Assembly: GCA_018716225.1 (NCBI GenBank) | Contig: DVKE01000033.1 | Span: 1 to 42,346 of the forward strand | Direction of reading: 5' to 3' | DNA from: Candidatus Onthousia faecigallinarum | GTDB taxonomy: Bacteria; Bacillota_I; Bacilli_A; RF39; UBA660 | DNA length: 42,346 nucleotides | Shown here: one piece after another, positions 6,615 through 30,098 of the stretch | Layout: the number at the start of each line of letters is the position of its first letter | How positions within the stretch are numbered: position 1 is the first letter of the stretch | The notes under the pieces: generated by a model | Told to the model about the DNA's origin: nothing | The model's database searches: none | What the model saw: only the letters and a program-made list of their open reading frames with translations | Translations under genes and position numbers: made by a program

Positions 6615-7679
6615 CTATTTCTCTTTGACATTTAAAATAACATCTTTAAAATAATATCCTAAAATTTGACGATAATTACAATCAAGATTTGCCAGAGCGC
6701 TCGCTCCTACCAAACTAAGCCCATAACCACTTCCTACACCCCTTGTAATAAAGGTAAGACCGTCTTTCTCAATTAAAATTGTGGCATCGGAAGAAGGAAG
6801 GCCTAATTGGGTAATCAAATCTTTATCGGAGAAAGTTTGATTCCCAATCCGTAAAGATTTGATCCGATTTCCTTCACTCACATTTAAAATTTGAACCGGA
6901 TAAGCTTTCCCTTCCTTTAAGCGTAATTGCTCTTTTAATTGCTCAATCGTAAAATGTCTTTGTTGCAGATAATGAGGATAAGCAAGATCCCAAAAGCTTT
7001 CTTTTCGTACCAAATAAGGAACCCCTTCTTTTTCCTCTGTATATCCATTGCTAGCGATATGATAATAACAGTCAATGGCTTTTTCTTGGTAAGTCAAATA
7101 CTCGTTTTTTGTTTCTTCGATCGCTTTTTGAAAAAGATCAAAATAAGTATGATAGGTAGTAGGGTATAATAACTTATAATAATTGTGATTGGTATAAGTG
7201 AAATATTGACAAGTAAGAGGTATTTTTTCCTTTTCTTCCATGTGATGAATGATTTCACTTCGATATAAAACTACCAATGCTTTTAAAGCTTCTAAAGGAA
7301 GAGTCATCTTGATATTGGTAAAAAGAAGACTAAGAAGCAAGTCATAAATACTTAAATTTTCATGATTAGTCATGGTAACTTTTGTCTTTTGATCATCATA
7401 ATGATGTTCTTTCTTTAAATGCAAGACTTTACTAACAATGCCATCCACTACCACTACGACCTTATCCCCTTGAAATTGAATTCTTTCCTTGCAAAGCCAA
7501 TCATTCGCTTTATTCTCTAATTCATAAGAGTCTAATTCTTCACTAAATTCATAGCCAAAAGTCAAATATAAATACAAAACGTCTTCAGATTTTTCTTTTA
7601 CTACCCTATAACTTTCTAACATAGTATCACCTAAAAATAGTGTGATCCAAAAAAAGGAAAATATACAAAAAAGAAACAA
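6615..7679 (-). CDS. spoIID: SpoIID/LytB-domain protein
   Basis: SpoIID is a membrane-bound glycan-strand lyase that works with SpoIIP and SpoIIM during engulfment of the forespore. Two family landmarks are visible: LPLEALKALVVLYRS (about residues 126-140, matching the LPxEALKAQAVAART motif with its key Glu), and the C-terminal RGVGSGYGLSLVGASALAN plus ILGYYFKDV, matching GHGVGMSQYGA...ILxYYYP. The N-terminus is a hydrophobic segment (1-19) suitable as an anchor, favouring the start at 7679. A start at 7622 has a better ribosome site (AGGTGATACT) but would lose the anchor. Sequence between the motifs is divergent, so SpoIID itself versus a paralogue is not settled. Three nt separate it from the upstream phospholipase-like gene. 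Confidence 0.75.
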   Translation of the reverse strand: MFLFCIFSFFWITLFLGDTMLESYRVVKEKSEDVLYLYLTFGYEFSEELDSYELENKANDWLCKERIQFQGDKVVVVVDGIVSKVLHLKKEHHYDDQKTKVTMTNHENLSIYDLLLSLLFTNIKMTLPLEALKALVVLYRSEIIHHMEEKEKIPLTCQYFTYTNHNYYKLLYPTTYHTYFDLFQKAIEETKNEYLTYQEKAIDCYYHIASNGYTEEKEGVPYLVRKESFWDLAYPHYLQQRHFTIEQLKEQLRLKEGKAYPVQILNVSEGNRIKSLRIGNQTFSDKDLITQLGLPSSDATILIEKDGLTFITRGVGSGYGLSLVGASALANLDCNYRQILGYYFKDVILNVKEK

Positions 7680-7682
7680 AGT

Positions 7683-8669
7683 TTATGCTTCTTCTTCAAA
7701 GTATTTAAAATTTTCACCCTTTTTACAATCTTTCCCCGTTGTATAAGAAAGATTAGGAAATAACTTTTTTAAGTTTACTTTCTTAGTATCTTTTAAATAA
7801 GCATTGACCTCCTTAATTAATTGATTGGTTTCATAGAGAGCTTCTAAATAAAGATCAACAACACTCTCTTTATGCTTTTCCCTTTTTAAACAAGGATGAT
7901 TCCACTGTTCATATTTTAGATTTAAATAATTTTTTTGATCAATTAAAGATTGGTGATAAGAAATAGCTTTCAACTGAAAGGTAGTTTTGGGTTTTAAAAG
8001 GTCAAAAAACTGATAAGCTTTCTTTTTTATCCCATATTTATCATAACGAAAATATTTTAAAGCAGAATACATTTGTTTTAAACTCTTTTGGTAAAAATAA
8101 CACATGTTTTTCACCCCAAAAGTTTCTTCAAAAGCATAATTAATCACCTCTTCTAATTCTAAAGAAAAGGGCATAAAGTCAAAACAAAAATCATAAAAAG
8201 AAAATGCATAGGGATTGGAATGTTCCCGTTGCTTGATAAAATAATTATCTATAAAGATTTCCATATATTCATGTTGTTGTTGAAAACGATAAGTTTCTTT
8301 GTCTTCTTTTTTGAAAACTCCTGTTTTATAAAAGACAAAAGGATGTATTTTGCTATCTAATTTATAGTGACAAATCATACCATATAGAAAACTCATAACA
8401 TCAGGTATTTTGTAATAACAATTATATTTAATATAATTAATTAAGTTAAGAAAAAATTCTTGGCTCTTATGAGTATGAAAATAATTACCAAATTCTTGTA
8501 CTTTTTCTCCCTTTTTAAGAGAAATTTTATTGTAAAAAAACAAAGCATCCATACTCTGCCCAAACATACGCATTCTTTTCTTTTCATCCATGAGAAGGCT
8601 TTTTAAACCAATAGGTAGCGCATCATAAACGTCCATAGCAAAATAAGCATGAGTAACGGTCGCTGGCAT
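7683..8669 (-). CDS. Zinc-dependent phospholipase C-like protein
   Basis: Resembles the zinc-dependent phospholipase C family. It starts with MPATVTHAYFAMDVYD (His7 near the N-terminus), followed by GQSMDALFFY, FHTHK, GMICHYKLDSKIHPF and HEYMEIFID: the scattered His/Asp ligands typical of this fold. It is 328 residues, without a clear signal peptide, so a cytoplasmic role on unknown phosphoester or lipid substrates is likely. The start follows a strong GGAGGG site. It forms a two-gene unit with the SpoIID-like gene, transcribed from the 8691-8696 region. Activity on phospholipids is inferred from the family only. Confidence 0.75.
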   Translation of the reverse strand: MPATVTHAYFAMDVYDALPIGLKSLLMDEKKRMRMFGQSMDALFFYNKISLKKGEKVQEFGNYFHTHKSQEFFLNLINYIKYNCYYKIPDVMSFLYGMICHYKLDSKIHPFVFYKTGVFKKEDKETYRFQQQHEYMEIFIDNYFIKQREHSNPYAFSFYDFCFDFMPFSLELEEVINYAFEETFGVKNMCYFYQKSLKQMYSALKYFRYDKYGIKKKAYQFFDLLKPKTTFQLKAISYHQSLIDQKNYLNLKYEQWNHPCLKREKHKESVVDLYLEALYETNQLIKEVNAYLKDTKKVNLKKLFPNLSYTTGKDCKKGENFKYFEEEA

Positions 8670-8690
8670 AATAACCCTCCTTACTTTAAA

Positions 8691-8696
8691 ATTATA
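8691..8696 (-). promoter_or_regulatory. Extended -10 promoter for the phospholipase/SpoIID-like pair
   Basis: On the minus strand the sequence reads ATGCTATAAT, a TGn-TATAAT extended -10, about 20 nt before the GGAGGG ribosome site. No clear -35 is visible. Confidence 0.5.
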
Positions 8697-8742
8697 GCAT
8701 ACTTTTTCATGAAAAACTCACAATTTTTCCGCAATTCTATGT

Positions 8743-8748
8743 TATAAT
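8743..8748 (+). promoter_or_regulatory. -10 box for the Abi_2-htrA unit
   Basis: TATAAT at 8743-8748, only about 20 nt before the start codon at 8767, so the leader is very short. It is divergent from the minus-strand promoter at 8691-8696. Confidence 0.5.
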
Positions 8749-8766
8749 GCATAATAGGTGATAGGG

Positions 8767-9720
8767 ATGATAGGCAAACAATTTAAAAATTTAGAAGAAC
8801 AAATTGAGATTCTAAAATATAAAGGAATGCAAATTCCAAATGAAGAAGAAGCTAAGAAAGTCCTTCTAAGAGAAAATTATTTCTTTTTAAATGGTTATCG
8901 CTATCCTTTCCTAAAGAGCCTAACAGAAAAGAAGTTTATCGAAGGAACAACTTTTGAAGAATTGTATAGTTTATTTTTATTTGATCGTTCCATTCGTAAT
9001 GTTTTCTTTAAAAATCTTTTGGTAATTGAAAACAACTTAAAATCTATTTTCTCTTATCAATTATCTAAGAAATATGGATATAAAGAAAAGGATTATTTAC
9101 GACCCAAAAACTTTACTCAAGATCGCAGCAAGAGTAAACAAGTAAATGACCTATTACGAAAAATGAAGCGTCAGATAAGAGTCAACGGATCACAACATAG
9201 TGCCACTGCTCATTACATAACAAATTATGGCTATATTCCACTATGGATTCTTGTAAAAGTACTTTCTTTTGGTATTGTAGGAGAATTGTTTTCTATCTTA
9301 AAGTATGAAGATCAAAAAAACATTTGTAATTTATATCATATTGAAGTCGAAACATTTCAACTCTATTTACCAATCTTATCAAACTATCGAAACCTCTGTG
9401 CTCATGAAGATATTCTTTATGAAAATAAGACTCAAAAAGAAATTCCGGATACGATCTATCACCAAGTATTAAATATTCCAAAAGAAGAAGGCGAATATAT
9501 TTATGGAAAAAACGATTTGTTTGCACTACTCATTATTATGAAGCAAATGTTATCAGAGGAAGAATTTAAGAACTTAACGATTGAGTTAGAAGAGTGGATT
9601 CAAAATTTAAACTATAATTTACATACGATAAAAATAGAAAAGATTTTAACAAGAATGGGATTTCCAGCTAATTGGAAACAATTAATGAAAATTGAAAGGA
9701 GTATGGAAGATGAAGCATGA
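8767..9720 (+). CDS. Abi_2 family (AbiD/AbiF-like) HEPN protein
   Basis: Matches the Abi_2 family, named from lactococcal abortive-infection proteins AbiD and AbiF, which stop phage growth; many members have no tested role. Visible landmarks are the N-terminal FKNLEEQIEILKYKGM, ENYFFLNGYRYPF (about 36-48), LFLFDRSIRNVFF, and the HEPN-type R-x4-H motif in YRNLCAHEDILY (about 209-220), which in HEPN RNases is catalytic. The ATG at 8767 is preferred because AGGTGA (8756-8761) is correctly spaced; a GTG lies at 8758. The last codons overlap the htrA start by 11 nt, so the two are translated from one message. No phage or restriction genes are nearby. Confidence 0.82.
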   Translation: MIGKQFKNLEEQIEILKYKGMQIPNEEEAKKVLLRENYFFLNGYRYPFLKSLTEKKFIEGTTFEELYSLFLFDRSIRNVFFKNLLVIENNLKSIFSYQLSKKYGYKEKDYLRPKNFTQDRSKSKQVNDLLRKMKRQIRVNGSQHSATAHYITNYGYIPLWILVKVLSFGIVGELFSILKYEDQKNICNLYHIEVETFQLYLPILSNYRNLCAHEDILYENKTQKEIPDTIYHQVLNIPKEEGEYIYGKNDLFALLIIMKQMLSEEEFKNLTIELEEWIQNLNYNLHTIKIEKILTRMGFPANWKQLMKIERSMEDEA

Positions 9721-10831
9721 AAGAATAAAAGAATTTGTCCTAATTATTATAGCTTTTTTAGTAGGAGGAGTTAGTACTTATTTTATCATTGGGGAAAAGA
9801 TTGGCTCTACCAACACCTCGACTTCTATTGTAGGAGGGGGGTGTAGTGCTGAAAACTGTACGAAAGTAGCAGTTGATGAATCGGGAATTAGCGATTCGGT
9901 AGAAAAAGTCTATGATGGAGTATTGATGGTACGAAATTATCAAAAAGATCAAGTCGCTTCTACAGGAACTGGTTTTGTGTATAAGATCGACGGAGATGAT
10001 GCTTATGTTATGACCAATCAACACGTAGTAGAAGGTGCTGATCGGGTTACTGTTATTGATTCAAAAGATCAAGAAATCGAAGGGGAGGTTTTAGGAGGCG
10101 ATACTTATGTTGATATCGCTATCATCAAAATAAAAAAGACGGATGATATCATTGCTTTAACTCTTGCTAGTAGTGAAAATGCGAAACTAGGAGATCTTGT
10201 CTTTACGATAGGGTGCCCTTTAGGTTATGATTATCGTGGTAGTGTTTCTACAGGACATTTAGCAGGAAAAGATCGCATGGTAACAGTAAGTACTTCAAAT
10301 AATTCCTCAAGCGGTGATTGGGTAATGGAAGTATTACAAACGGATGCTGCAATTAATCCTGGAAATAGTGGAGGACCTTTATTCAATGTCAATGGAGAAG
10401 TGATTGGTATTATTTCCATGAAACTAGTCCAAACGGAAGTAGAAGGAATGGGATTTGCAATTCCGATTGAATATGCTACAAGTAAACTAGAAACTCTAGA
10501 AAAAGGAGAAACCATTGAATGGCCATTATTAGGAGTTCAAATGGTCAATGTATCGGATGCTCTTAATTCTTATCGTTACAGTAATTATAATATTCCAGAA
10601 GGAGTGGAGTCAGGTGTCATTGTAGTAGGAATTGAGAAAGGAACTGGAGCAGAACACTCTGATTTACAAGAAGGAGATATTATTGCCAAGATTAATGATG
10701 AAGAAGTAGAAAACTCTGCTTACTTACGTTATGAATTATATAAATATTCACCAGGAGATAAAATTACAGTAACCTACTTAAGAGATGGAAAAGAACATAC
10801 CACTCAAGTAAGCTTAAGCAAAAGTGAATAA
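9710..10831 (+). CDS. htrA: HtrA/DegP-like membrane-anchored serine protease
   Basis: Surface quality-control protease of the trypsin-like S1C family with one PDZ domain. One membrane helix (about residues 7-27) anchors it, and the catalytic domain faces outward. The triad is visible: H105 (MTNQHVVEGAD), D135 (YVDIAIIKI) and S220 (NPGNSGGPLFN). The PDZ domain covers about 265-365 (ESGVIVVGIEKG...LQEGDIIAKIND). The start at 9710 follows AAAGGAG and overlaps the end of the Abi_2 gene; it matches the position where the hydrophobic anchor should begin. At 373 residues it is close to the Bacillus HtrA paralogues in length. A bidirectional terminator follows. Confidence 0.93.
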   Translation: MKHERIKEFVLIIIAFLVGGVSTYFIIGEKIGSTNTSTSIVGGGCSAENCTKVAVDESGISDSVEKVYDGVLMVRNYQKDQVASTGTGFVYKIDGDDAYVMTNQHVVEGADRVTVIDSKDQEIEGEVLGGDTYVDIAIIKIKKTDDIIALTLASSENAKLGDLVFTIGCPLGYDYRGSVSTGHLAGKDRMVTVSTSNNSSSGDWVMEVLQTDAAINPGNSGGPLFNVNGEVIGIISMKLVQTEVEGMGFAIPIEYATSKLETLEKGETIEWPLLGVQMVNVSDALNSYRYSNYNIPEGVESGVIVVGIEKGTGAEHSDLQEGDIIAKINDEEVENSAYLRYELYKYSPGDKITVTYLRDGKEHTTQVSLSKSE

Positions 10832-10832
10832 A

Positions 10833-10866
10833 AAAGACTGTCTTAGAAAACTTCTAACAGTCTTTT
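10833..10866. terminator. Bidirectional terminator between htrA and the NrdD-like gene
   Basis: AAAAGACTGT (10833-10842) pairs perfectly with ACAGTCTTTT (10857-10866) around a 14-nt loop. The two genes converge here, and the minus-strand gene's last codons lie inside the stem. Confidence 0.85.
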
Positions 10867-12854
10867 CTTTTTATTTCAATACAACCGAAGTTGGCTTTTT
10901 GTATAGAATCAATCGCTTCTTCCATAGATTTAAAATCATCAAGATAAATGGTATCAAGATGTCCCCCGTTGGCAAGTTTTTGAAATCCAGCCAAACTTTC
11001 TTGTTTGACCGGTAGAAAATAACCAGATGAATACTTTTCTTGATCTGTAATACCTTTTAACTTTCCAAAAATAGCGGTATCTTGTTGCTTAAATTCTCTT
11101 TCAACAAACTCGTAAGGAACAGCAGAAAGAGAAAAATTAAGATTGTTTTCGTCACTTAATTTTGTAATTTTCTTTTTCATAAACTGAACAATTTCTATCC
11201 CATAGGTAAGTCTCTGATCCTTCTTCTCTGCTTGAAACAAAGCTTCTAAACATTCTTTTAAACCACAAAAATGAATGGTTAAGGTACCGTGCTTTAAAAT
11301 TTTTCTTAACCGATCTCCATCTTTTAATTTTTCTCCATCATGCCACACGCCGTACCCATATAAAACAGGCAACTGCCGAATATGTTTTGAACATTCAATT
11401 TCAAAACGATTCAAAAGAGCGTCACTAGCACTTTTTATTACTCCATCTAATTCTTTATAAAAGCCTCTTAAGTCCAAAGGATGTTTTAAAGCAATGCGTA
11501 CAAGATTAATCGAAACGGTCGCTAAATTTCCTTTTCCTCCCACTAATTTTTTTTCCAAAGTGGTATTATCTTCGATAACTCGTGCACCATAAGGAAAATA
11601 AGAGACCACTTCTTCTTTTAAAGAATTAAAGCGATTATCCAAAAAGATATAATAACAGTGACAAAACCTTGCTTGATAAGAAATTTCTTGAAATTGTTTA
11701 AAATAAGGATAATTCGGACTATGAGAAGAAGAATTTATTTTCTTTGATACTTGAAAGAAATAATGGATGCGTTCTTGATCTTGTAAGGAAGAAAGAATGG
11801 AATCTAAAACCAATTGGCCCGCAAAAGAAGAGGCCATTCCAAAATTATAAGCGATCTCTTTTTCCAAAGAGAAAGAAAACAAAGAGGCAAGAGATGCGGA
11901 AAGCATTCTTTTTAATTGACTAAGGGAAGCAGCAAAGATATTTTGGCAAGAAAGAAGTAAGAAATGATTCTCATGAACAAAAGAAGCGAACAGGTCTTTT
12001 GGAAAAGTAAAATCGGTTAAGTGATCAAGCTCTTTTTCTAGTTTTTCCAAAGAGAAAAAGTTTTCAAATTCATTCGCTTGAAAGAAAAGGGCAAAATAAT
12101 TTTTTAAGATCTCTTTATATTGTTTTAAAGCAATCGATTCTAAAGCAAGATCAAAACTTGAGAACATGATGGAACCATAAACTTCATTTTGTAGGGAAAG
12201 AAGCAGTTTTTTGATTAATTCAAAATAACCAGTTACTTGAGTTTGTGATCGTAAAGCAAGAGAAAAAGGAGTATCTAGAGTTTCTAATTCCCTTAAATCA
12301 ATCGAAATAGACTCGATGGAACCCATAGGAATGGTTTCTATCGAATGAAGGAAAATAGTCCCACTATCATGACTTTTTACTGTTTTACTATCTAAAAGAT
12401 AAGCTTTGGCAAATTCATAAGAGATGGTAGAACCAAACTTACTAAGTAGGGAAGAAGGGGTATCCTGCTCCTTTGGTTGGTAGAGTCCCAAGGCTTCAAT
12501 CGCTTTTAGAAACTTATGTTGCTGTTTCCCGACAAAAGTTTTCCTTGAGATATTTCTTCGCTTTCGATAGGCCGAAAAAGACTGATAAACATCCATAAAT
12601 TTTTCCTTTTGTAACACCATTTCAATAATATCTTGAATATTTTCAATATTAATCGTCTTTCGATCTTGATAATCTTTTTCTATTTGTTGAAGTACTTTTT
12701 CATACACTTTATTGACATCTTCATCATGATAGGGAATGTCAACCGAACGAAAAGCTTTTTGAATGGCTAAGGCAATTTTTTCGCCTTGAAAAGCAGTTCT
12801 CTGACCACTTCTTTTTACCACGATTAAAGTATCAAACAGAGTTGTTTTTGACAT
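10854..12854 (-). CDS. NrdD-like protein with ATP-cone, lacking the glycyl-radical end
   Basis: Related to class III anaerobic ribonucleotide reductase. An ATP-cone occupies about residues 10-100 (VVKRSGQRTAFQGEKIALAI). The NrdD-type barrel follows, with GGKGNLATVSINLVRIAL (about 439-456) matching the RGNxSxxTINLPR motif. Just before it, the expected GCR motif with the active-site Cys reads YGAR (A424). The HIHDxD...C region near 170 (HSIETIPMGSIES) shows no Cys. The protein stops after GGHLDTIYLDD...CIEIKRKDC, where NrdD normally continues into a four-Cys zinc ribbon and the glycyl-radical site. No nrdG activase is adjacent. It is therefore unlikely to reduce nucleotides and may be a regulatory or repurposed paralogue. 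ATG at 12854 is chosen for its spacing from AAGGAGG; a GTG at 12860 lies too close. Confidence 0.8.
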   Translation of the reverse strand: MSKTTLFDTLIVVKRSGQRTAFQGEKIALAIQKAFRSVDIPYHDEDVNKVYEKVLQQIEKDYQDRKTINIENIQDIIEMVLQKEKFMDVYQSFSAYRKRRNISRKTFVGKQQHKFLKAIEALGLYQPKEQDTPSSLLSKFGSTISYEFAKAYLLDSKTVKSHDSGTIFLHSIETIPMGSIESISIDLRELETLDTPFSLALRSQTQVTGYFELIKKLLLSLQNEVYGSIMFSSFDLALESIALKQYKEILKNYFALFFQANEFENFFSLEKLEKELDHLTDFTFPKDLFASFVHENHFLLLSCQNIFAASLSQLKRMLSASLASLFSFSLEKEIAYNFGMASSFAGQLVLDSILSSLQDQERIHYFFQVSKKINSSSHSPNYPYFKQFQEISYQARFCHCYYIFLDNRFNSLKEEVVSYFPYGARVIEDNTTLEKKLVGGKGNLATVSINLVRIALKHPLDLRGFYKELDGVIKSASDALLNRFEIECSKHIRQLPVLYGYGVWHDGEKLKDGDRLRKILKHGTLTIHFCGLKECLEALFQAEKKDQRLTYGIEIVQFMKKKITKLSDENNLNFSLSAVPYEFVEREFKQQDTAIFGKLKGITDQEKYSSGYFLPVKQESLAGFQKLANGGHLDTIYLDDFKSMEEAIDSIQKANFGCIEIKRKDC

Positions 12855-21127: not shown

Positions 21128-21201
21128 CCAAAAATTACCAATCGAAAAAAGGTATGAAATATAAGAATTTTCACAATCTACTAGTGTAGGAGGTGAAAAC
21201 A

Positions 21202-21414
21202 ATGAGCAACTCAAATCAAGGATCAATGAAAATGAGAGTGCCTGGAGCTAAACAAGCTATCGATAAGATGAAATACGAAATCGCTAATGAATTCGGAGTT
21301 AATTTAGGACCAGATGCAACAAGCCGTGCTAACGGATCTGTTGGTGGTGAAATTACTAGACGTTTAGTTCAAAACGGACTTAATCAAGTAAGTGGAAGTT
21401 ATTCTAATAAATAA
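21202..21414 (+). CDS. Alpha/beta-type small acid-soluble spore protein
   Basis: DNA-coating protein made in the developing forespore that protects spore DNA. Family marks are [17 protein letters not shown] (with the EIANE germination-protease cut region) and [19 protein letters not shown], the two conserved helices. It is 70 residues, the usual size. The ATG at 21202 follows a perfect AGGAGGTG; an in-frame GTG at 21193 overlaps that site and is rejected. Upstream, GTATGAA (21152-21158) and CAATCTA (21174-21180) loosely fit a sigma-G-type promoter. A strong terminator follows. Its presence is the clearest single sign that the organism makes spores. Confidence 0.95.
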
Positions 21415-21430
21415 GTAAGATAACTTAAGC

Positions 21431-21458
21431 GATAGGCAGAAGATGCCTATCTTTTTTT
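21431..21458 (+). terminator. Terminator after the SASP gene
   Basis: GATAGGCA (21431-21438), 5-nt loop, TGCCTATC (21444-21451), then a T-run. It insulates the spore gene from the following paralogue array. Confidence 0.9.
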
Positions 21459-21466
21459 ATTGTTTT

Positions 21467-21516: not shown

Positions 21517-23241
21517 ATGGCAAAGAAATATACAGAGGAACAATTAAAAGAAGCGTTAGAAATCTATAAAGAAAATCATAAAGATAGTGTTTACATTCCC
21601 CAAAACGCCGTAGTAACCTTAAAAGATGGAACCAAAGTAAATTTAGGAACCTGGGGAAGCCATATGAAAAGTCGACTTAAAACAATATCATCTGAATTAA
21701 AAAAAGAAGTTCTATTTTTATATCCAAAGCACTTCGAAGATAATAAAAGATCATATTCCTTAGCTCAATTAAAAGAAGCCTTAGTTTTTTATAAAAAAGA
21801 ACACAAGGATAGCAAGTATATTCCCACAAATGCAATAGTAACCTTAAAAGATGGAACGAAAGTGAATTTAGGAACTTGGGGAAATAATATTAAAAGTGGA
21901 TCTACAAAAATATCTTTCGAATTAGAAAAATTAGTTTATACTTTGTTTCCAAAGCAATTTGAAGAAGTTAGAAAAATATATACAGAAGAACAAATAAAAG
22001 AAGCGCTAAGACTCTATAAAAAAGGGCACAAGAATAGCGAGTTTATTCCTCAAAATGCCATAGTAATATTAAAAGATGGAATGAAAATAAATTTAGGAAC
22101 TTGGGGGAGGAATGTTAAAAGTGGAATTACAAAAATATCATCTGAATTAAGACAAGAAGTCCTCACTTTCTACCCAAATCAATTTGAAATTAGAAAAAAA
22201 ACCAAAACTGGTAAGGAATCAATCTCCCCTTTAGAGAAGTATAAAGAACTTTTCAAAGGCGATGAAGTAAAGGCCAAACAGGTAGTAGAATGTTTAAGAA
22301 AATTAAGAGAAAAAAGACAAGCAAAGAAGAGTTATGAGTGGAATATAGAAGATGTATTACAAGAGTTTCATATTGATCGCAAACAGTTGGATTCTTATCT
22401 TAAGAAAACCGTCAAAGAGGAGAGAAAAAGTACATCTTTAGAGTATCATGGTCAAGATCTTCACTCTTATTGCCTGGAACAAGGTTATAATTATGAAATT
22501 CTTGTAAAAGCTCTTCGTCTTCATTCCTTTTGCGGACATGATACCTTGGAACAGTTAATCAATCGCATTCTTACCCAAACCCCAAACAGGATTCCTACTT
22601 GGATCTATGAAAACTATGGAACTTTAATAGAACAAAAATTAATTTGGTTAAAGCTAGATAAAAGTAAAATCTTAAAGAGTATGAGTCAAAATATTATCCC
22701 GTTAGAAGAAGCGATTCGGCATGATATCTTTTTACAAGAAAGAAAAGAGCAAACCAATGATTGGTTAGAAGAGCCTTATAATTATTTGGTGGCACAAATA
22801 AATTCGGGCCAAGGAAGAAAAGAAACAGAAGAAAATTTAGCTTACAACTTTTATATGCTAGTAAAAAAATATCATTTGACTCCTTCAGAATATCAAATCT
22901 TATGGAATAGTATCTCACATTATATTAATACCATACACTCTTATCAAATCATCGATGTAGGCCTCGCTGGAAGAACTATAGACAAGATAGAAAAGATAAA
23001 AAAATATCAATTGGATCAGGATGACATAAAAGAAAGTTATCTTTTTGCTCTTTCCTTTGATAAAAAGCTCTCTCAAAGAAGTGATTTATTAAGATCCTTT
23101 TTGATGAAGAAGGGATCTGATATTCAAGAGGTTCAGAAATCTTTAAAAAACACCTTAACAGAAAAAGAGTTTTCTGCTATCCAAAAGATAAAAGCAGAAA
23201 TGAATCAAACCATTCAAAAAGTAAAAAAATTAAAATTGTAG
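21517..23241 (+). CDS. Repeat-domain protein 1 of a three-gene paralogous array
   Basis: Unrecognised family. Three N-terminal modules of about 75 residues occupy about 3-225; each reads roughly YTEEQLKEAL..YK..HK.S..IP..A.V.LKDG.KVNLGTWG..VKSG..KIS.EL...L.P.QFE. The IP...LG.W pattern recalls helicase-associated domains, which bind nucleic acid, but that link is pattern-based only. A basic linker (KVKAKQVVECLRKLREKRQ) leads to a conserved C-terminal half with SYCLEQGYNYEILVKAL, HDTLEQLINRI, TWIYENYG, MSQNIIPLEEAIRHD and NDWLEEPYNYL. No signal peptide or membrane helix. ATG at 21517 is chosen for the AGTGGTGAT site and the match of MAKK..YTEE to the paralogues. Its last 70 residues differ from those of proteins 2 and 3. 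Confidence 0.8.
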   Translation: MAKKYTEEQLKEALEIYKENHKDSVYIPQNAVVTLKDGTKVNLGTWGSHMKSRLKTISSELKKEVLFLYPKHFEDNKRSYSLAQLKEALVFYKKEHKDSKYIPTNAIVTLKDGTKVNLGTWGNNIKSGSTKISFELEKLVYTLFPKQFEEVRKIYTEEQIKEALRLYKKGHKNSEFIPQNAIVILKDGMKINLGTWGRNVKSGITKISSELRQEVLTFYPNQFEIRKKTKTGKESISPLEKYKELFKGDEVKAKQVVECLRKLREKRQAKKSYEWNIEDVLQEFHIDRKQLDSYLKKTVKEERKSTSLEYHGQDLHSYCLEQGYNYEILVKALRLHSFCGHDTLEQLINRILTQTPNRIPTWIYENYGTLIEQKLIWLKLDKSKILKSMSQNIIPLEEAIRHDIFLQERKEQTNDWLEEPYNYLVAQINSGQGRKETEENLAYNFYMLVKKYHLTPSEYQILWNSISHYINTIHSYQIIDVGLAGRTIDKIEKIKKYQLDQDDIKESYLFALSFDKKLSQRSDLLRSFLMKKGSDIQEVQKSLKNTLTEKEFSAIQKIKAEMNQTIQKVKKLKL

Positions 23242-23256
23242 TAGGAGGACGACGGG

Positions 23257-24927
23257 ATGAAAAATCAAAAATATACGGATACAGAATTAGAAGAAGCTTT
23301 AGTAATTTGTAATAGAAAATATCCTAAAAAGGATCATATTCCTCAAAAAGCAGTAGTAATTTTAAAAGATGGAAGGGTAGTGAAAATAGGAAATTGGGGT
23401 AGTAATATAAAAACAGGAAATACCCATTCTTCAAAAGAAATAAAAGCAATTCTAGATAAACTTTTCCCTAATCAATTAACTTATCAACGACATTTTTATA
23501 CAGACCAAGAAATTAAAGAAGCAATTAAGAAATACAAAGAAGAAAATCCTACCTTACAATGGATTGATAGTTCCGCCGTTGTTATTTTAGACAATGGGAA
23601 AAAAGTACTATTGGGAGCTTATGGACAGCGTATTAAAAATGGGGTCAAGAAAATATCTGAGGAAATGAAAGCATATATTCTTTCTTATTTTCCAAACTTA
23701 TTTGAGGGGAAAAAGCCTTTTCTAGCCCAACAAAAAGATTCCCTATTAAAAGAAGCTTTGAAAGCTTATAAAGAAGGACATCCGAAAGCCAATAGAATTC
23801 CCTTGAAAGCGATAGTAATTTTAAAAGATGGTAGAAAGGTAAGAATAGGAAGTTTTGCAGCCAATGTAAAAAATGGTTCCACCAAAGCTTCACCCGAAAT
23901 ATATAATCTTCTGCTTTCTTTATATCCTCATCATTTTGATAAGCAGCGAGGATCCGTAAACTCTTATGTAGTTCAACAAGTAATGAGAAAGGAAAGAAAT
24001 AAATATGATTTCTGGACAGTAGAGCATGTATTAAAAAAATTTGGATTAAGAAAAGAAGCTCTTGATCAAATTCTTTCAAAGATAAAAATAGAATCCCCAA
24101 AGGATTTTTCAAAACAAGAACAGACGAAAGTATTAATATCCACTTATTGTAACAGCCAAGGATATGATTATGAAAAGTTAAAAAAAGCTTTTCAATTACA
24201 TAATTTTTGTAAGCAAGATACACTAGAGCAATTAATCAATCGTGTTATTACTAAACTTCCGAATGAGATTTCTACTTGGATTTATGAAAAGTATGGAAGT
24301 CTGGTAGCAGAGAAATTAACTTATTTAAAATTAGACGCGAAAGCAATATTAAAATATATGAGTGATAATATTGTTTCAATAGAAGAAGGAATTCAACATG
24401 AAGTGTTTGAGGAAGAAAAACAAACCGAAGGGAACAACTGGTTAGAAGATCCTTATAATTGCTTTATCAAAAAAAAGCAAAAGGAAGAGAATGTTTTAGA
24501 AGAGATCACAGAATTTAAAGAGGCATACCCCCTTAATGAATTGGAGAGTCAAGTACTAACAAAAAGTATCAGAAGATATTTTCAACTCCTAGGAGAATAC
24601 CGAATATTAGATGTAGGACTTACAGTTGATCAAAAAGAAAAAATAGCGAAGATCAAAAAGTATCAGATGAATGAAGAAAATATTGAAGAAAGTTTCTTTG
24701 TCCCGCTTTTCTTTGATCAAGGAGTGTTATTGGGAAAGCAAAAGAAACTTTATCAAAGAAGAGAAGTTTTAAGACAATATATTATTGATTGGAATTATTA
24801 TACGGAGGAAGAAAAAGAATTATTAACCACTACTTTTACGAAAGAGGAACTTCATTATATGGATCAATCTAGAAAGGAAATTGATCAAGTAATAAAAAAG
24901 ACGAAAACCAAAAGCTACAAAAGATAA
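23257..24927 (+). CDS. Repeat-domain protein 2 of the paralogous array
   Basis: Paralogue of its two neighbours and the most diverged. Three N-terminal modules (about 4-75, 78-150 and 155-230) keep the LKDG..V.(I/L)G core but lose the tryptophan in places (GAYGQRIKNG, GSFAANVKNG). The C-terminal half keeps YCNSQGYDYEKLKKAFQLHNFC, DTLEQLINRVI, STWIYEKYGSL, MSDNIVSIEEGIQHEVF and NNWLEDPYNCF. The tail (EESFFVPLFFDQGVLLGKQ, LRQYIIDWNYY, EELHYMDQSRKEID) is shared with protein 3 but not protein 1. An AGGAGG site lies 9 nt before ATG and 15 nt separate it from gene 1, so the two are one operon. Function unknown. Confidence 0.8.
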   Translation: MKNQKYTDTELEEALVICNRKYPKKDHIPQKAVVILKDGRVVKIGNWGSNIKTGNTHSSKEIKAILDKLFPNQLTYQRHFYTDQEIKEAIKKYKEENPTLQWIDSSAVVILDNGKKVLLGAYGQRIKNGVKKISEEMKAYILSYFPNLFEGKKPFLAQQKDSLLKEALKAYKEGHPKANRIPLKAIVILKDGRKVRIGSFAANVKNGSTKASPEIYNLLLSLYPHHFDKQRGSVNSYVVQQVMRKERNKYDFWTVEHVLKKFGLRKEALDQILSKIKIESPKDFSKQEQTKVLISTYCNSQGYDYEKLKKAFQLHNFCKQDTLEQLINRVITKLPNEISTWIYEKYGSLVAEKLTYLKLDAKAILKYMSDNIVSIEEGIQHEVFEEEKQTEGNNWLEDPYNCFIKKKQKEENVLEEITEFKEAYPLNELESQVLTKSIRRYFQLLGEYRILDVGLTVDQKEKIAKIKKYQMNEENIEESFFVPLFFDQGVLLGKQKKLYQRREVLRQYIIDWNYYTEEEKELLTTTFTKEELHYMDQSRKEIDQVIKKTKTKSYKR

Positions 24928-24933
24928 AATATT

Positions 24934-24962
24934 TTGACAGAAAAAAAGAAAAGTTATATAAT
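24934..24962 (+). promoter_or_regulatory. Consensus sigma-A promoter for repeat-domain gene 3
   Basis: A perfect TTGACA (24934-24939), 17 nt, and a perfect TATAAT (24957-24962), right after the stop codon of gene 2. Gene 3 can thus be expressed separately from genes 1 and 2. Confidence 0.85.
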
Positions 24963-24989
24963 AAAGCGCAAAAAAGAGGAAAATAAAAA

Positions 24990-26528
24990 GTGCCAAGAAA
25001 GCAAGCATACACAGAAGCTCAATTAAAAGAAGCCTTAAAAATCTATAAAGAAGAACATAAAAATAGTGATCATATTCCTTATAGAGCAGTAGTAACTTTA
25101 AAAGATGGAGCGAAAGTGAATTTAGGAACCTGGGGAACTTATATTAAAACAAGAAAAAAGTCGATATCACCGGAATTAGAAAAAGAAATTATTAGTTTGT
25201 TTCCCACACAATTTGAAGATAATAGAAGAACATATTTGGAAGAACAGATAAGAGAAGCACTAGATATCTATAAAAGAGATCATAAAGATAGTGACCATAT
25301 TTTACGGAGTGCCGCAGTAACCTTAAAAGATGGAACTAAAGTTAATTTAGGGACTTGGGGAAATAATGTCAAAAGAGGAACTACAAGAATATCGCTTGGA
25401 TTAAGAAAAAAAGTTCTTGAACTGTTTCCGAATCAGTTCAAGGTGATAAAAAAATCAAAGACAGGTAAGGCATCAACTTCTACGTTTCAAAAGTATAAAG
25501 ATCTTTTCGATGGGAATGAAGAAAAGGCAAAACGAGTTGTAGAGTGTCTTAAAGAGTTAAGAGAGAGAAGACAAAGTCGAAAGAAACAAGAATGGAATAT
25601 CGATAATTTGTTACAAGAGTTTGATGTTAATCTGGAACAGTTAGATTCTTATTTGAATCGAACAAAGACCGAAGATAGATCAGCTCCTTCTTCTCCTTTA
25701 AAATACCATGGAGAAACACTTCGTTCTTATTGTATCGAACACGGTTATAACTATGATCTTATTTCAAAAGCCGTTCGTCCTCATGATTTCTGTTCTCATG
25801 ATACTCTAGAACAACTAATCAATCGCGTGATTACAACTTATCAACAAGAAGGACAACATGCTCCCTCTACTTGGATCTATGAAAAATATGGAAACTTAGT
25901 AAAACATGAATTGACTTATCTTCATCTAGATAGTAATGCTATTTTGAAAAATATGAGTCAAAATGTTATTTCTTTGGAAGAAGCGATTCGTCATGATGTT
26001 TTCTTAAAAGAGAGAAAAGAGCGAACCAATGATTGGTTAGAAGAACCCTACAATTACTTAGTAGAAGAAATTGATAGTGAAAAAGGAAAAGAAGAAACAG
26101 AGAAAGATTTAGTGAATCGTTTTTATGGTTTAGTAGAAGAATATCATCTAGACCAATCGGAATATCAAGTCTTATGGAATAGTATTTCAAGATATATTAA
26201 TACTATGAGAGAATATCAAATGTTAGATGTAGGACTTACGACCAACGAAGAAGAAAAGATCGAGAAGATCAAGAAATATCGCATGGAGGAAGAAGACATT
26301 GAAGAGAGTTTCTTTGTCCCTCTTTCTTTCGATAAAGGGGTTTTAGTAGGAAGACAAAGTGAGTTATACAAAAGAAGAAATGAGTTAAGACAATATATTA
26401 TTGATTGGGATTATTATAGTGAGGAAGAAAAAGAAGCTTGGAAAAGTAAATTTAATTCTGAAGAGCTTCATTATATTAATAAGACAAGAAAAGATATTGA
26501 TAAAACAATCCAAAGTGTAAGAAAATGA
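24990..26528 (+). CDS. Repeat-domain protein 3 of the paralogous array
   Basis: Starts with GTG after AGAGGA. Only two N-terminal modules are present (about 5-80 and 81-155), both with the full LGTWG signature. The following linker and middle (KAKRVVECLKELRERRQ, EHGYNYDLISKAVRPHDFC, HDTLEQLINRVI, TWIYEKYGNL, MSQNVISLEEAIRHDVF, NDWLEEPYNYL) are closest to protein 1. The last ~90 residues (EESFFVPLSFDKGVLVGRQ, LRQYIIDWDYY, EELHYINKTRKDID) are closest to protein 2. The gene therefore looks like a recombinant of the other two. It is 512 residues, predicted soluble, with no known domain in the C-terminal half. It has its own strong promoter. Confidence 0.8.
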   Translation: MPRKQAYTEAQLKEALKIYKEEHKNSDHIPYRAVVTLKDGAKVNLGTWGTYIKTRKKSISPELEKEIISLFPTQFEDNRRTYLEEQIREALDIYKRDHKDSDHILRSAAVTLKDGTKVNLGTWGNNVKRGTTRISLGLRKKVLELFPNQFKVIKKSKTGKASTSTFQKYKDLFDGNEEKAKRVVECLKELRERRQSRKKQEWNIDNLLQEFDVNLEQLDSYLNRTKTEDRSAPSSPLKYHGETLRSYCIEHGYNYDLISKAVRPHDFCSHDTLEQLINRVITTYQQEGQHAPSTWIYEKYGNLVKHELTYLHLDSNAILKNMSQNVISLEEAIRHDVFLKERKERTNDWLEEPYNYLVEEIDSEKGKEETEKDLVNRFYGLVEEYHLDQSEYQVLWNSISRYINTMREYQMLDVGLTTNEEEKIEKIKKYRMEEEDIEESFFVPLSFDKGVLVGRQSELYKRRNELRQYIIDWDYYSEEEKEAWKSKFNSEELHYINKTRKDIDKTIQSVRK

Positions 26529-26652: not shown

Positions 26653-27846
26653 ATGAAATTATTATCCATTAATGCAGGTAGCAGTTCATTGAAGTTTCGT
26701 TTATATGAAATGCCAGAAGAAAAATTATTAATGAAAGGAATGTTTGAGCGCATCGACTTAGAAGGTTCTAGTTATAGCGTGCGGATTGGTGAAGAGAAAA
26801 AAGGAGAACTTGTTCCTTTAAAAGATCATAATGATGCGGTGAAGCTACTATTAAATATATTAATTGAAAATAAAGTAGTAGAATCACTTGATGAAATCGA
26901 AGCGGTTGGACATCGTGTGGTTCATGGGGGAAACAAGTATTCTAAAAGTGTGGAGATTACCGATCGTGTTTTACTTGAAATTGAAGGAATTTCCGAGTTA
27001 GCTCCTCTTCACAATCCAGCTGCTTTAAAAGGAATTTATGCTTTTCAAAGTAATATTCCGAATGCCAAGATGGTCGCTTGTTTTGATACCGCTTTTCATC
27101 AGACGATGAATGAAGCGACTTATCTTTATCCGGTACCTTATGAATGGTATGTAAAATATGATGTTAGAAAGTATGGATTCCATGGTTTAAGTCATAAATT
27201 TATTACCGAAAAGATGACAGAAATTTTAGGGAAAAAGCCCAATTTAATTATTTGTCATATTGGAAATGGTGGATCGATTACGGCCGTAAAAGAAGGATGT
27301 TGTATAGATACTTCGATGGGCTTTACTCCAAACTCAGGAATTATGATGGGAACGCGTTCTGGAGATATTGATTATTCAATTATTAGTTATGTCATGAAGA
27401 AAGAACAGCGAAACCTAGATTGGATTGAACAACAATTAAATAAAGAAAGTGGTCTTGAGGGAATTGCAGGAATGAGTGATTTACGAGATATTGATCGGGC
27501 GTTTGAAGCGAATGAACAAAAAGCTTCTTTAGCGATTGAAATGTATACTTCAAGAATTGCTGATTATGTAGCGAAATACTATGTAAGATTAGGTGGAGTA
27601 GTCGATGCTATTTGTTTCACTGCTGGTGGTGGTGAAAACGATGATATCATTCGCGGAGAAACGTTAAAGAAACTTACTCCTCTTGGAATTGTTCTTGATG
27701 AAGAAAAGAACAAAGAAACGATTGTTCGTAAAGGAGTCGAAGGCATTATTACGAAAAGTGAATCAAAAATTCCGGTCTATGTTTTAGCAACGGATGAAGA
27801 ATTAATGATCGCTCGGGATACGTATCATGTTGTAATAGAAGGGTAA
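26653..27846 (+). CDS. ackA: Acetate kinase (first of two)
   Basis: Makes ATP from acetyl phosphate, the last step of fermentative acetate production. Family motifs are present in order: LSINAGSSSLKF at the N-terminus, GHRVVHGG, PLHNPAAL, FDTAFHQTM, YGFHGLSHK, CHIGNGGSITAV, GTRSGDID and the C-terminal TDEELMIARDT. The late motif reads TAGGGENDD rather than the usual TAGIGENS, with neighbouring residues also changed; protein 2 keeps the common form. At 397 residues it is of normal length. A TATAAT box (26626-26631) and an AAAGGAG site precede it. Sequence differences from the second copy are large enough that the duplication is not recent. Confidence 0.92.
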   Translation: MKLLSINAGSSSLKFRLYEMPEEKLLMKGMFERIDLEGSSYSVRIGEEKKGELVPLKDHNDAVKLLLNILIENKVVESLDEIEAVGHRVVHGGNKYSKSVEITDRVLLEIEGISELAPLHNPAALKGIYAFQSNIPNAKMVACFDTAFHQTMNEATYLYPVPYEWYVKYDVRKYGFHGLSHKFITEKMTEILGKKPNLIICHIGNGGSITAVKEGCCIDTSMGFTPNSGIMMGTRSGDIDYSIISYVMKKEQRNLDWIEQQLNKESGLEGIAGMSDLRDIDRAFEANEQKASLAIEMYTSRIADYVAKYYVRLGGVVDAICFTAGGGENDDIIRGETLKKLTPLGIVLDEEKNKETIVRKGVEGIITKSESKIPVYVLATDEELMIARDTYHVVIEG

Positions 27847-28910: not shown

Positions 28911-30098
28911 ATGAAAATTATTTCAATCAACACAGGAAGTAGTTCCTTAAAATTCAGTCTATTCAATATGGATAAGGAAGAAGTGATAGCAAGTGGTCTT
29001 TTTGAACGCATCGGTTTAGAAGGAAGCAGCTATACGATCAAATTCCATGGTGAAAAAATCAAAGAAGAAATCGAACTTCAAAATCATACTGATGCAGTAA
29101 AAGTGTTACTAGAAAAATTAATTTCTTTAAATATTATCGGCTCTCTAGATGAAATTAATGGGGTAGGACATCGCCTTGTTCATGGAAAAGATAAATATTC
29201 ATCAAGCGTATTAATTACTGATGAAGTGGTAGAGGATTTAATCAAGTTTAAAGACTTTGCCCCTCTACACAATCCAGCGAATGTCTTAGGAATCAATGCT
29301 TTTCGGGAAGTGTTGCCTGATGTTCCCATGGTAGGAGTTTTTGATACTGCTTTTCATCAGACGATGAGTCAAGAAGAATATCTTTATCCAGTACCTTATG
29401 AATGGTATCAAAACTATGGTGTTAGAAAATATGGCTTTCATGGAACAAGTCATCGTTATATAACCAAGAAGATTAGTAAAGAATTAAACCGAAACGATTT
29501 AAAAATCATTAGTTGTCATGTCGGAAATGGAGGATCGATCACGGCCATTAAAGATGGCAAATGTGTAGATACTTCGATGGGCTTTACCCCGCTTGCAGGA
29601 ATTATGATGGGCACACGGTCTGGAGATGTGGATGCTTCGATTATTCCTTATGTAATGGAACAAGAAGGACTTAATGCCAGTGAAGTGGTAGATGCTCTAA
29701 ATAAGAAATCAGGTTTGCTTGGTATTAGTGAGAAAAGTAGTGATATGCGTGATGTGGTAGCCGGTATGGAAGAAGGCGATGAAAAGTGTAAGTTAGCTTT
29801 TGATATGTACACAAGAAAAGTAACGAACTACATTGCCGAATATTATGTCTTATTAGGCGGAGCCGATGTCATTGTCTTTACCGCTGGACTTGGGGAAAAC
29901 AGTGTTCCCTTCCGTAAAAGAGTTTGTGAAAATTTAGTTTGTCTTGGTATTAAACTAGATGAAAAAGCAAATGATTGTATGGGAGAACTTCGTAAAATTA
30001 GTAGCGACGACTCTTCCGTTTTCGTTTATGTTATCCCAACCGATGAAGAATTAATGATTGCGGAGGATACCAAAAGAATAATAAATGAGATTGGATAA
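28911..30098 (+). CDS. ackA: Acetate kinase (second of two)
   Basis: Second acetate kinase homologue, 395 residues, with all usual motifs: ISINTGSSSLKFSLF, GHRLVHGK, APLHNPANV, FDTAFHQTM, YGFHGTSHR, CHVGNGGSITAI, GTRSGDVD, TAGLGENS and TDEELMIAEDT. It keeps the standard TAGxGENS site that the first copy has altered. It starts after a GAGGG site, has its own -10 box, and its stop lies 5 nt before the nrnA start, so nrnA and ysxC probably share its transcript. Either copy could be the housekeeping acetate kinase; the other might use a different acyl phosphate. Confidence 0.93.
   Translation: MKIISINTGSSSLKFSLFNMDKEEVIASGLFERIGLEGSSYTIKFHGEKIKEEIELQNHTDAVKVLLEKLISLNIIGSLDEINGVGHRLVHGKDKYSSSVLITDEVVEDLIKFKDFAPLHNPANVLGINAFREVLPDVPMVGVFDTAFHQTMSQEEYLYPVPYEWYQNYGVRKYGFHGTSHRYITKKISKELNRNDLKIISCHVGNGGSITAIKDGKCVDTSMGFTPLAGIMMGTRSGDVDASIIPYVMEQEGLNASEVVDALNKKSGLLGISEKSSDMRDVVAGMEEGDEKCKLAFDMYTRKVTNYIAEYYVLLGGADVIVFTAGLGENSVPFRKRVCENLVCLGIKLDEKANDCMGELRKISSDDSSVFVYVIPTDEELMIAEDTKRIINEIG

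Follow-up and report, generated by a model that had tools for sequence, protein, structure and literature searches.

The stretch of DNA analysed here (the window, 42,346 nucleotides of contig DVKE01000033.1) comes from the draft genome of Candidatus Onthousia faecigallinarum. It contains an array of three co-directional genes, g1, g2 and g3, located between the gene of an alpha/beta small acid-soluble spore protein (SASP) and the acetate kinase gene ackA. A first-pass annotation of the sequence had named the same two neighbours and had described the gene products as three, three and two copies of a repeat module followed by a common C-terminal half. This architecture was borne out by a profile of the ~72-residue module, with exactly eight matches in the array (three, three and two per gene; E values between 8.6e-38 and 2.2e-30), and by a conserved region of ~340 residues common to the three proteins. 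The same C-terminal region and two further module copies are encoded by a fourth gene, on contig C56 of the same 1.15-Mb draft genome, which adjoins secE, nusG and rplK (neighbours identified by eye). The coordinates of the array and its flanks are given in the table. The gap between g1 and g2 is only 15 bases long, and a longer g1, starting from a TTG codon at 21460, is possible.

The module core proposed at first pass, LKDG-x-KVNLGTWG, is strict in g1 and g3 only, whereas the modules of g2 deviate from it (NWG, AYG and SFA). Low-complexity similarity, a possibility raised in that annotation, was considered as the source of the modules and was dropped, since every module is matched at E<=2e-30. 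In the AlphaFold2 model of g3 (mean predicted local distance difference test score, pLDDT, 81.6) each module is composed of a helix, a hairpin and two further helices. Modules are often duplicated, and their nucleotide identity within the family locus L056 reaches 94%. At another locus, L107, we observed a module-only open reading frame (ORF) with 6 modules (9630-10988, minus strand). The family gene that follows, with 5 modules and the C-terminal region (7468-9690, minus strand), overlaps it in a different frame. The two ORFs probably represent one 11-module gene split by a frameshift, either real or originating from the assembly.

Features of the module array and its flanks in the window. 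Variable residues, read from the sequence by eye, are listed in the order P+1 (the residue after IP or its equivalent), then +1, +4, +5 and +8 after the G of LG.
Feature	Position	Strand	Remarks
Alpha/beta SASP gene	21193..21414	+	upstream boundary; PF00269, 3.8e-19; outside the module family
Terminator-like hairpin	21431-21451		after the SASP gene
g1	21517..23241	+	574 aa from ATG; three modules and C-terminal region
g1 module 1	21529..21741	+	Q, T, S, H, S
g1 module 2	21754..21966	+	T, T, N, N, S
g1 module 3	21979..22188	+	Q, T, R, N, S
g1 C-terminal conserved region	22234..23238	+	
g2	23257..24927	+	556 aa; three more diverged modules and C-terminal region
g2 module 1	23272..23481	+	Q, N, S, N, T
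g2 module 2	23497..23706	+	S, A, Q, R, N
g2 module 3	23737..23943	+	L, S, A, N, N
g2 C-terminal conserved region	23911..24924	+	
Sigma-70 consensus promoter	24934..24962	+	upstream of g3; TTGACA-17-TATAAT, 12/12, spacer 17
g3	24990..26528	+	512 aa, GTG start; two modules and C-terminal region
g3 module 1	25008..25220	+	Y31, T47, T50, Y51, T54 of the protein
g3 module 2	25233..25442	+	R, T, N, N, R
g3 C-terminal conserved region	25488..26525	+	
Acetate kinase gene (ackA)	26653..27846	+	downstream boundary; outside the module family

The resemblance of the modules to the helicase-associated (HA) domain, suspected at first pass, was substantiated through relatives of the window proteins. L060 exceeds the cut-off of the Pfam HA profile PF03457 in one full-length stretch (31.4 vs 28.4 bits), L058 matches it at full length under the cut-off (24.7 bits), and L048 reaches 33.4 bits only as a sum over its repeats. 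The L048 score was given little weight, because repeat-summed scores also yield nonsense matches, such as T2SSB in L107 (3.6e-9); this and other weak Pfam matches (Cellulase, EAD10), mostly repeat-summed, were rejected as noise. When the L060 modules were compared with plasmids by tblastn, 14 records were found, all of Actinomycetota and including Prescottella equi plasmids, and the annotated matches are all HA-domain or helicase genes. True HA repeats for profile comparison were taken from Streptomyces plasmids. In hhalign, the window-type modules matched the intermediates L058, L060 and L052 (E 1.5e-7, 94%), and the module set of the whole family matched the Streptomyces HA repeats (E 1.1e-4).

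The modules are best described as divergent HA-like units, homologous to the HA domain via intermediates, and not members of it by the Pfam criterion. They share with PF03457 a multi-copy module of the type G..LG.W...R, as well as variable positions after LG that recur in an HA helicase of Streptomyces (see below). On the other hand, the window arrays are linked neither to a helicase, as had been noticed at first pass, nor to another enzyme, and are joined to an unrelated C-terminal region; Pfam revealed no helicase domain in g1, g2, g3 or any other scanned family member. L051, L052, L053, L058 and L060 carry a GF.W or GM.W motif at the C-terminal end of the module; the window modules lack it and end in FP.QFE.

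The HA profile had no matches at E<=1e-5 over 245 genomes of the phylum, and its controls were also unmatched, so this absence is uninformative. A sequence search of the PDB with the modules gave nothing convincing, full-length g3 had no Foldseek match in the PDB, and NCBIfam, PHROGs and PADLOC provided nothing usable for g1-g3. The top Foldseek match of g3 in BFVD (E 0.039, prob 0.84) was a phage 'Helicase associated domain' protein, and the second row had a prob of 0.98 with E 0.17; both are regarded as leads only.

Alignments of the modules within single genomes show mainly fixed columns together with a few strongly variable ones, whose locations coincide between unrelated groups. The variable sites are P+1 (see the table) and the residues at +1, +4 and +8 after the G of LG or IG; in some groups +5 and +9/+10 vary additionally. 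The entropy of the LG+1/+4/+8 trio is far above that of random column trios in six groups (P 0.00025 to 0.002), namely G202, BRZ_NH, Faecimonas, G110, G535 and G014, of which G110 and G535 belong to one genus. In smaller module sets the P values range from 0.01 to 0.31. The 28 modules of G135, although strongly diverged, keep the same register around IN-x-FW-x-x-x-K. In the model of g3 module 1, helix 2 is formed by residues 45-53, which places the variable sites 47, 50, 51 and 54 along this helix or just beyond it. Moreover, in L139, a Streptomyces plasmid helicase with seven HA repeats, the highest variability among 38 columns is seen at LG+4, followed by LG+1 (trio test P 0.002, one protein only), and LG+7 is an invariant R. 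As these HA repeats vary likewise, the register may belong to the HA fold itself and not be peculiar to the gut family.

The variable sites also differ from the rest of the module in the changes that they accumulate. Their ratio of nonsynonymous to synonymous changes (pN/pS) is 0.86-1.27, in comparison with 0.28-0.43 elsewhere, and in 23 near-neighbour module pairs 63 of the 244 amino-acid differences fall at 4 of the 59 sites (26% vs 6.8% expected). Such a pattern might also arise if these were simply tolerant, exposed positions of a fast-duplicating repeat, whose nucleic-acid binding is non-specific or which has another function. The frequent module duplication and a pN/pS of about 1, not well above it, fit this explanation. 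We consider it improbable, however, because helix 1 positions that are expected to be exposed remain conserved, the residues at the variable sites are chemically restricted, and the same register is found in diverged module classes and in the HA repeats of a helicase.

The chemical restriction is pronounced. Acidic residues occupy only 2 of 248 positions at the sites of the register vs 136 of 794 at other variable sites (Fisher P 4e-15), while N, Q, S, T, H, Y and R are enriched there; the residues found include Q, S, N, A, R, T, K and others. This bias and the recurrent register constitute the new content of the analysis and were not part of the first-pass annotation. Protein-binding repeats, too, typically present a variable face on a repeat scaffold, and the modules could in principle be protein- or peptide-binding repeats or cell-surface variants, whose variable face recognises proteins. 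Arrays that are not strongly basic in every member would agree with such a role. Nevertheless, protein interfaces are seldom so poor in acidic residues, the homologous HA repeats occur on helicases, the remaining part of the protein is partly HTH-related (helix-turn-helix; see below), and neither a signal peptide nor a membrane anchor was noticed when the sequences were read by eye. Recognition of proteins therefore seems distinctly improbable.

g3 is 56% identical to g1, over nearly its full length, and 51% identical to g2 in the C-terminal region. An 18-member alignment of the region has 9 invariant columns. The last ~60 residues of g1 (window 23040-23241) lack the VLxGxxSELYxRR...YIIDW block retained by almost every other member, and the C-terminus of g1 may be degenerate or altered. 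In contrast to the modules, the region changes little between paralogues of one genome: its identity is 95.4% in L052/L053 and 93.4% in L047/L048, and the residue sets of their modules differ. Modelled alone, the g3 region is almost entirely helical (pLDDT 86.4, predicted template modelling score 0.81). Its best Foldseek match had E 1.5, and VIA-align returned generic helical matches only, whose best Z of 6.1 does not rise above the noise among helical proteins. The fold is not concluded to be novel, as a missing structural match does not show a new fold.

The earlier view that this half matches no family stands as far as Pfam, NCBIfam, PHROGs, PADLOC and the PDB are concerned, where nothing convincing was found, but it does not extend to the first part of the region. 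The first half is common to distantly related ~390-residue proteins of other genera (L064, L101-L105), which are likewise of a multi-module DNA-binding type; their PHROG matches include HNH-endonuclease and other DNA-related families. They differ from the window proteins in having N-termini made of ordinary HTH repeats (Pfam HTH matches), not HA-like ones, and in occurring as one match per genome, and in L101-L105 the last part of the region is barely recognisable. L103, L104 and L105, from three species of a single genus, are embedded in a conserved gene order beside a gene for a ~2000-residue protein and look like a vertically inherited single-copy gene. In L063 (6906-9320, minus strand) a family member is followed, within the same ORF, by two units with a domain resembling the RNA polymerase alpha C-terminal domain (PF03118, 2.5e-9). 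This domain occurs in L063 alone and is absent from the window proteins; the fusion suggests a link to transcription.

Based on our observations, we suggest, with moderate confidence, that g1-g3 encode paralogous modular sequence-specific nucleic-acid binders, which would aim one constant helical, HTH-related domain at different sites and most likely read double-stranded DNA. DNA is proposed as the ligand because the proteins are related to HA and HTH units and because their variable sites are nearly devoid of acidic residues. Each module would be a divergent HA-type unit (helix 1, beta-hairpin, helix 2 and helix 3), with helix 2 as the reading surface, so that the base-contacting residues would lie on this helix and just before the hairpin. 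A composite site would be read by two to about eight consecutive modules, and retargeting would proceed via module duplication and changes at the variable positions. The constant C-terminal region might serve as a shared scaffold or effector carried to each site. We speculate that the protein would most plausibly be a DNA-bound regulator or silencer.

Several observations weigh against this proposal. None of g1, g2 and g3 has a Pfam HA match at E<=1, and the window-type modules align only weakly with the Streptomyces HA repeats when compared directly (hhalign E 0.095), so that the intermediates are needed. The module arrays are not uniformly basic, their net charge being +8 to +18 in the window and -6 in L048. 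The trio test on the window's own eight modules is weaker than in the six groups (P 0.04). All these P values are, in addition, overstated, because the register was initially recognised by visual inspection of some groups that were later tested, and modules of one genome are not independent and share ancestry. Synonymous sites are near saturation, and a pN/pS of about 1 can be explained equally well by relaxed constraint and by positive selection. Finally, the neighbouring genes vary between genomes and no recurring partner gene was seen among the neighbourhoods listed, except at orthologous sites in close relatives, and for this reason the term 'system', applied to the array at first pass, appears too strong. 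The stronger argument for a predicted reading function is the recurrence of the register across genera and module classes.

The C-terminal family was detected only in the GTDB family of the window, which comprises host-associated Bacilli, and there in 4-6% of sampled genomes. With g3 as a query it was detected in 11 of 193 genomes of the GTDB family, and a search of the genus found it in 4 of 35. The C-terminal alignment found it in 16 of 288 genomes of the order and a class-wide search in 4 of 395, all within the same GTDB family. The named relatives are gut metagenome-assembled genomes, e.g. Candidatus Onthousia faecavium and Candidatus Faecimonas gallistercoris. Copy number varies from single genes through tandem pairs (L051) and triplets (the window, L058) to a run of about ten genes in G135 (L065:5319-20000 and L066:1-1509, minus strand). 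This run, with the diverged module YIELLN...FxNGxxINxFW, is the largest array seen. Since contigs break inside modules or C-terminal regions (at the start of L056, at the end of L057, and in L047 and L048), copy numbers in draft genomes are lower limits. G202 and G110 are among the genomes with contigs that end within family genes.

The site between the SASP gene and ackA is itself variable. One family gene is located there in L049 and in L050, the two flanking genes are directly adjacent in the sister species G197 and G221, where the site is empty, and the surroundings of ackA in other sister species (L132, L137, L124, L120) contain ORF6N, Fic/RhuM or Rpn-like genes. As different species carry different accessory genes there, the site can be regarded as an accessory-gene hot spot. 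In BRZ_NH bin11, two family copies at unrelated places are 86% identical at the nucleotide level over their common part, which extends from ~50 bases before the start codon of the L052 gene to ~12 bases after the beginning of the stop codon. The family seems to spread as single genes, given that a gene-sized unit is common to these two sites. Recent lateral arrival of the array itself, as judged by base composition, was dropped, its GC content (0.30-0.32) being in line with that of the window.

Gain, loss and spread of this kind hint at a possible role in conflict with mobile DNA. The genes might be cargo of mobile elements, or of defence against them, inserted at hot spots and diversified by an arms race with phages or plasmids, which would be compatible with modular binding. 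We regard this role as possible though somewhat unlikely. The patchy presence of the family, the empty site in sister species, the other accessory genes around ackA and the gene-sized unit common to two sites are in its favour. However, the best that PADLOC offered was PsyrA for g3 (E 0.058), with no match for g1 or g2; phages and plasmids yielded no relatives when searched by tblastn with the C-terminal region, and a search of IMG/VR with g3 was likewise empty. The proteins also lack a nuclease or another effector domain, and a recurring partner gene was not seen.

As regards the remaining features of the window, g3 is preceded by its own perfect consensus promoter, as had been pointed out at first pass, and promoter-like sites across the array region are no commoner than in shuffled sequence. 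RNA genes were not found in the window, and the GC content of positions 1-1500 (0.23) is lower than that of the remaining window (0.27-0.38). A second acetate kinase paralogue, 54% identical to ackA, is located at 28911-30098, and a short-chain dehydrogenase gene lies between the two; most members of the genus have two acetate kinase copies.

The proposed proteins would resemble known modular readers. A 2024 survey of DNA-binding tandem-repeat proteins covers STAR, MOON, pTERF, NORD and MIRAGE (PMC11417379). In the sections consulted and by keyword, no family like that of the window was found in this survey, and 'helicase' appears only in its keyword list. The window family would work like STAR, MOON and pTERF (PMC11417379), transcription activator-like (TAL) effectors and C2H2 zinc-finger arrays, having a conserved scaffold with a few variable residues at fixed sites, a conserved flanking region and paralogues with different residue sets. 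Its repeat is a different and longer one (~72-86 aa). Homology to TAL effector repeats or C2H2 zinc fingers was not detected by Pfam in any scanned member. We found no literature describing the family that combines this module with this C-terminal region and, among open-licence papers, none on what the HA domain (PF03457) recognises.

A broader proposal, which we offer tentatively and which may well prove wrong, is that HA domains generally act as modular readers of nucleic acid, whose specificity would be set by the residue before the hairpin and by LG+1, +4, +5 and +8 of helix 2. HA arrays would then be a further natural class of readers, possibly programmable, and the window family its helicase-free bacterial form, with a single constant C-terminal domain directed to many sites. 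HA domains are annotated as helicase-associated, and the natural arrays described here make the question of recognition directly testable. If the proposal is true, the arrays within a genome would be expected to pick out distinct sequences, and an exchange of variable residues between two arrays would be expected to exchange their sites. HA arrays would then stand beside zinc fingers, TAL effectors, PUF and PPR proteins. This would add a modular DNA-reading fold and would explain a gene family that duplicates and diversifies in uncultured gut Bacilli.

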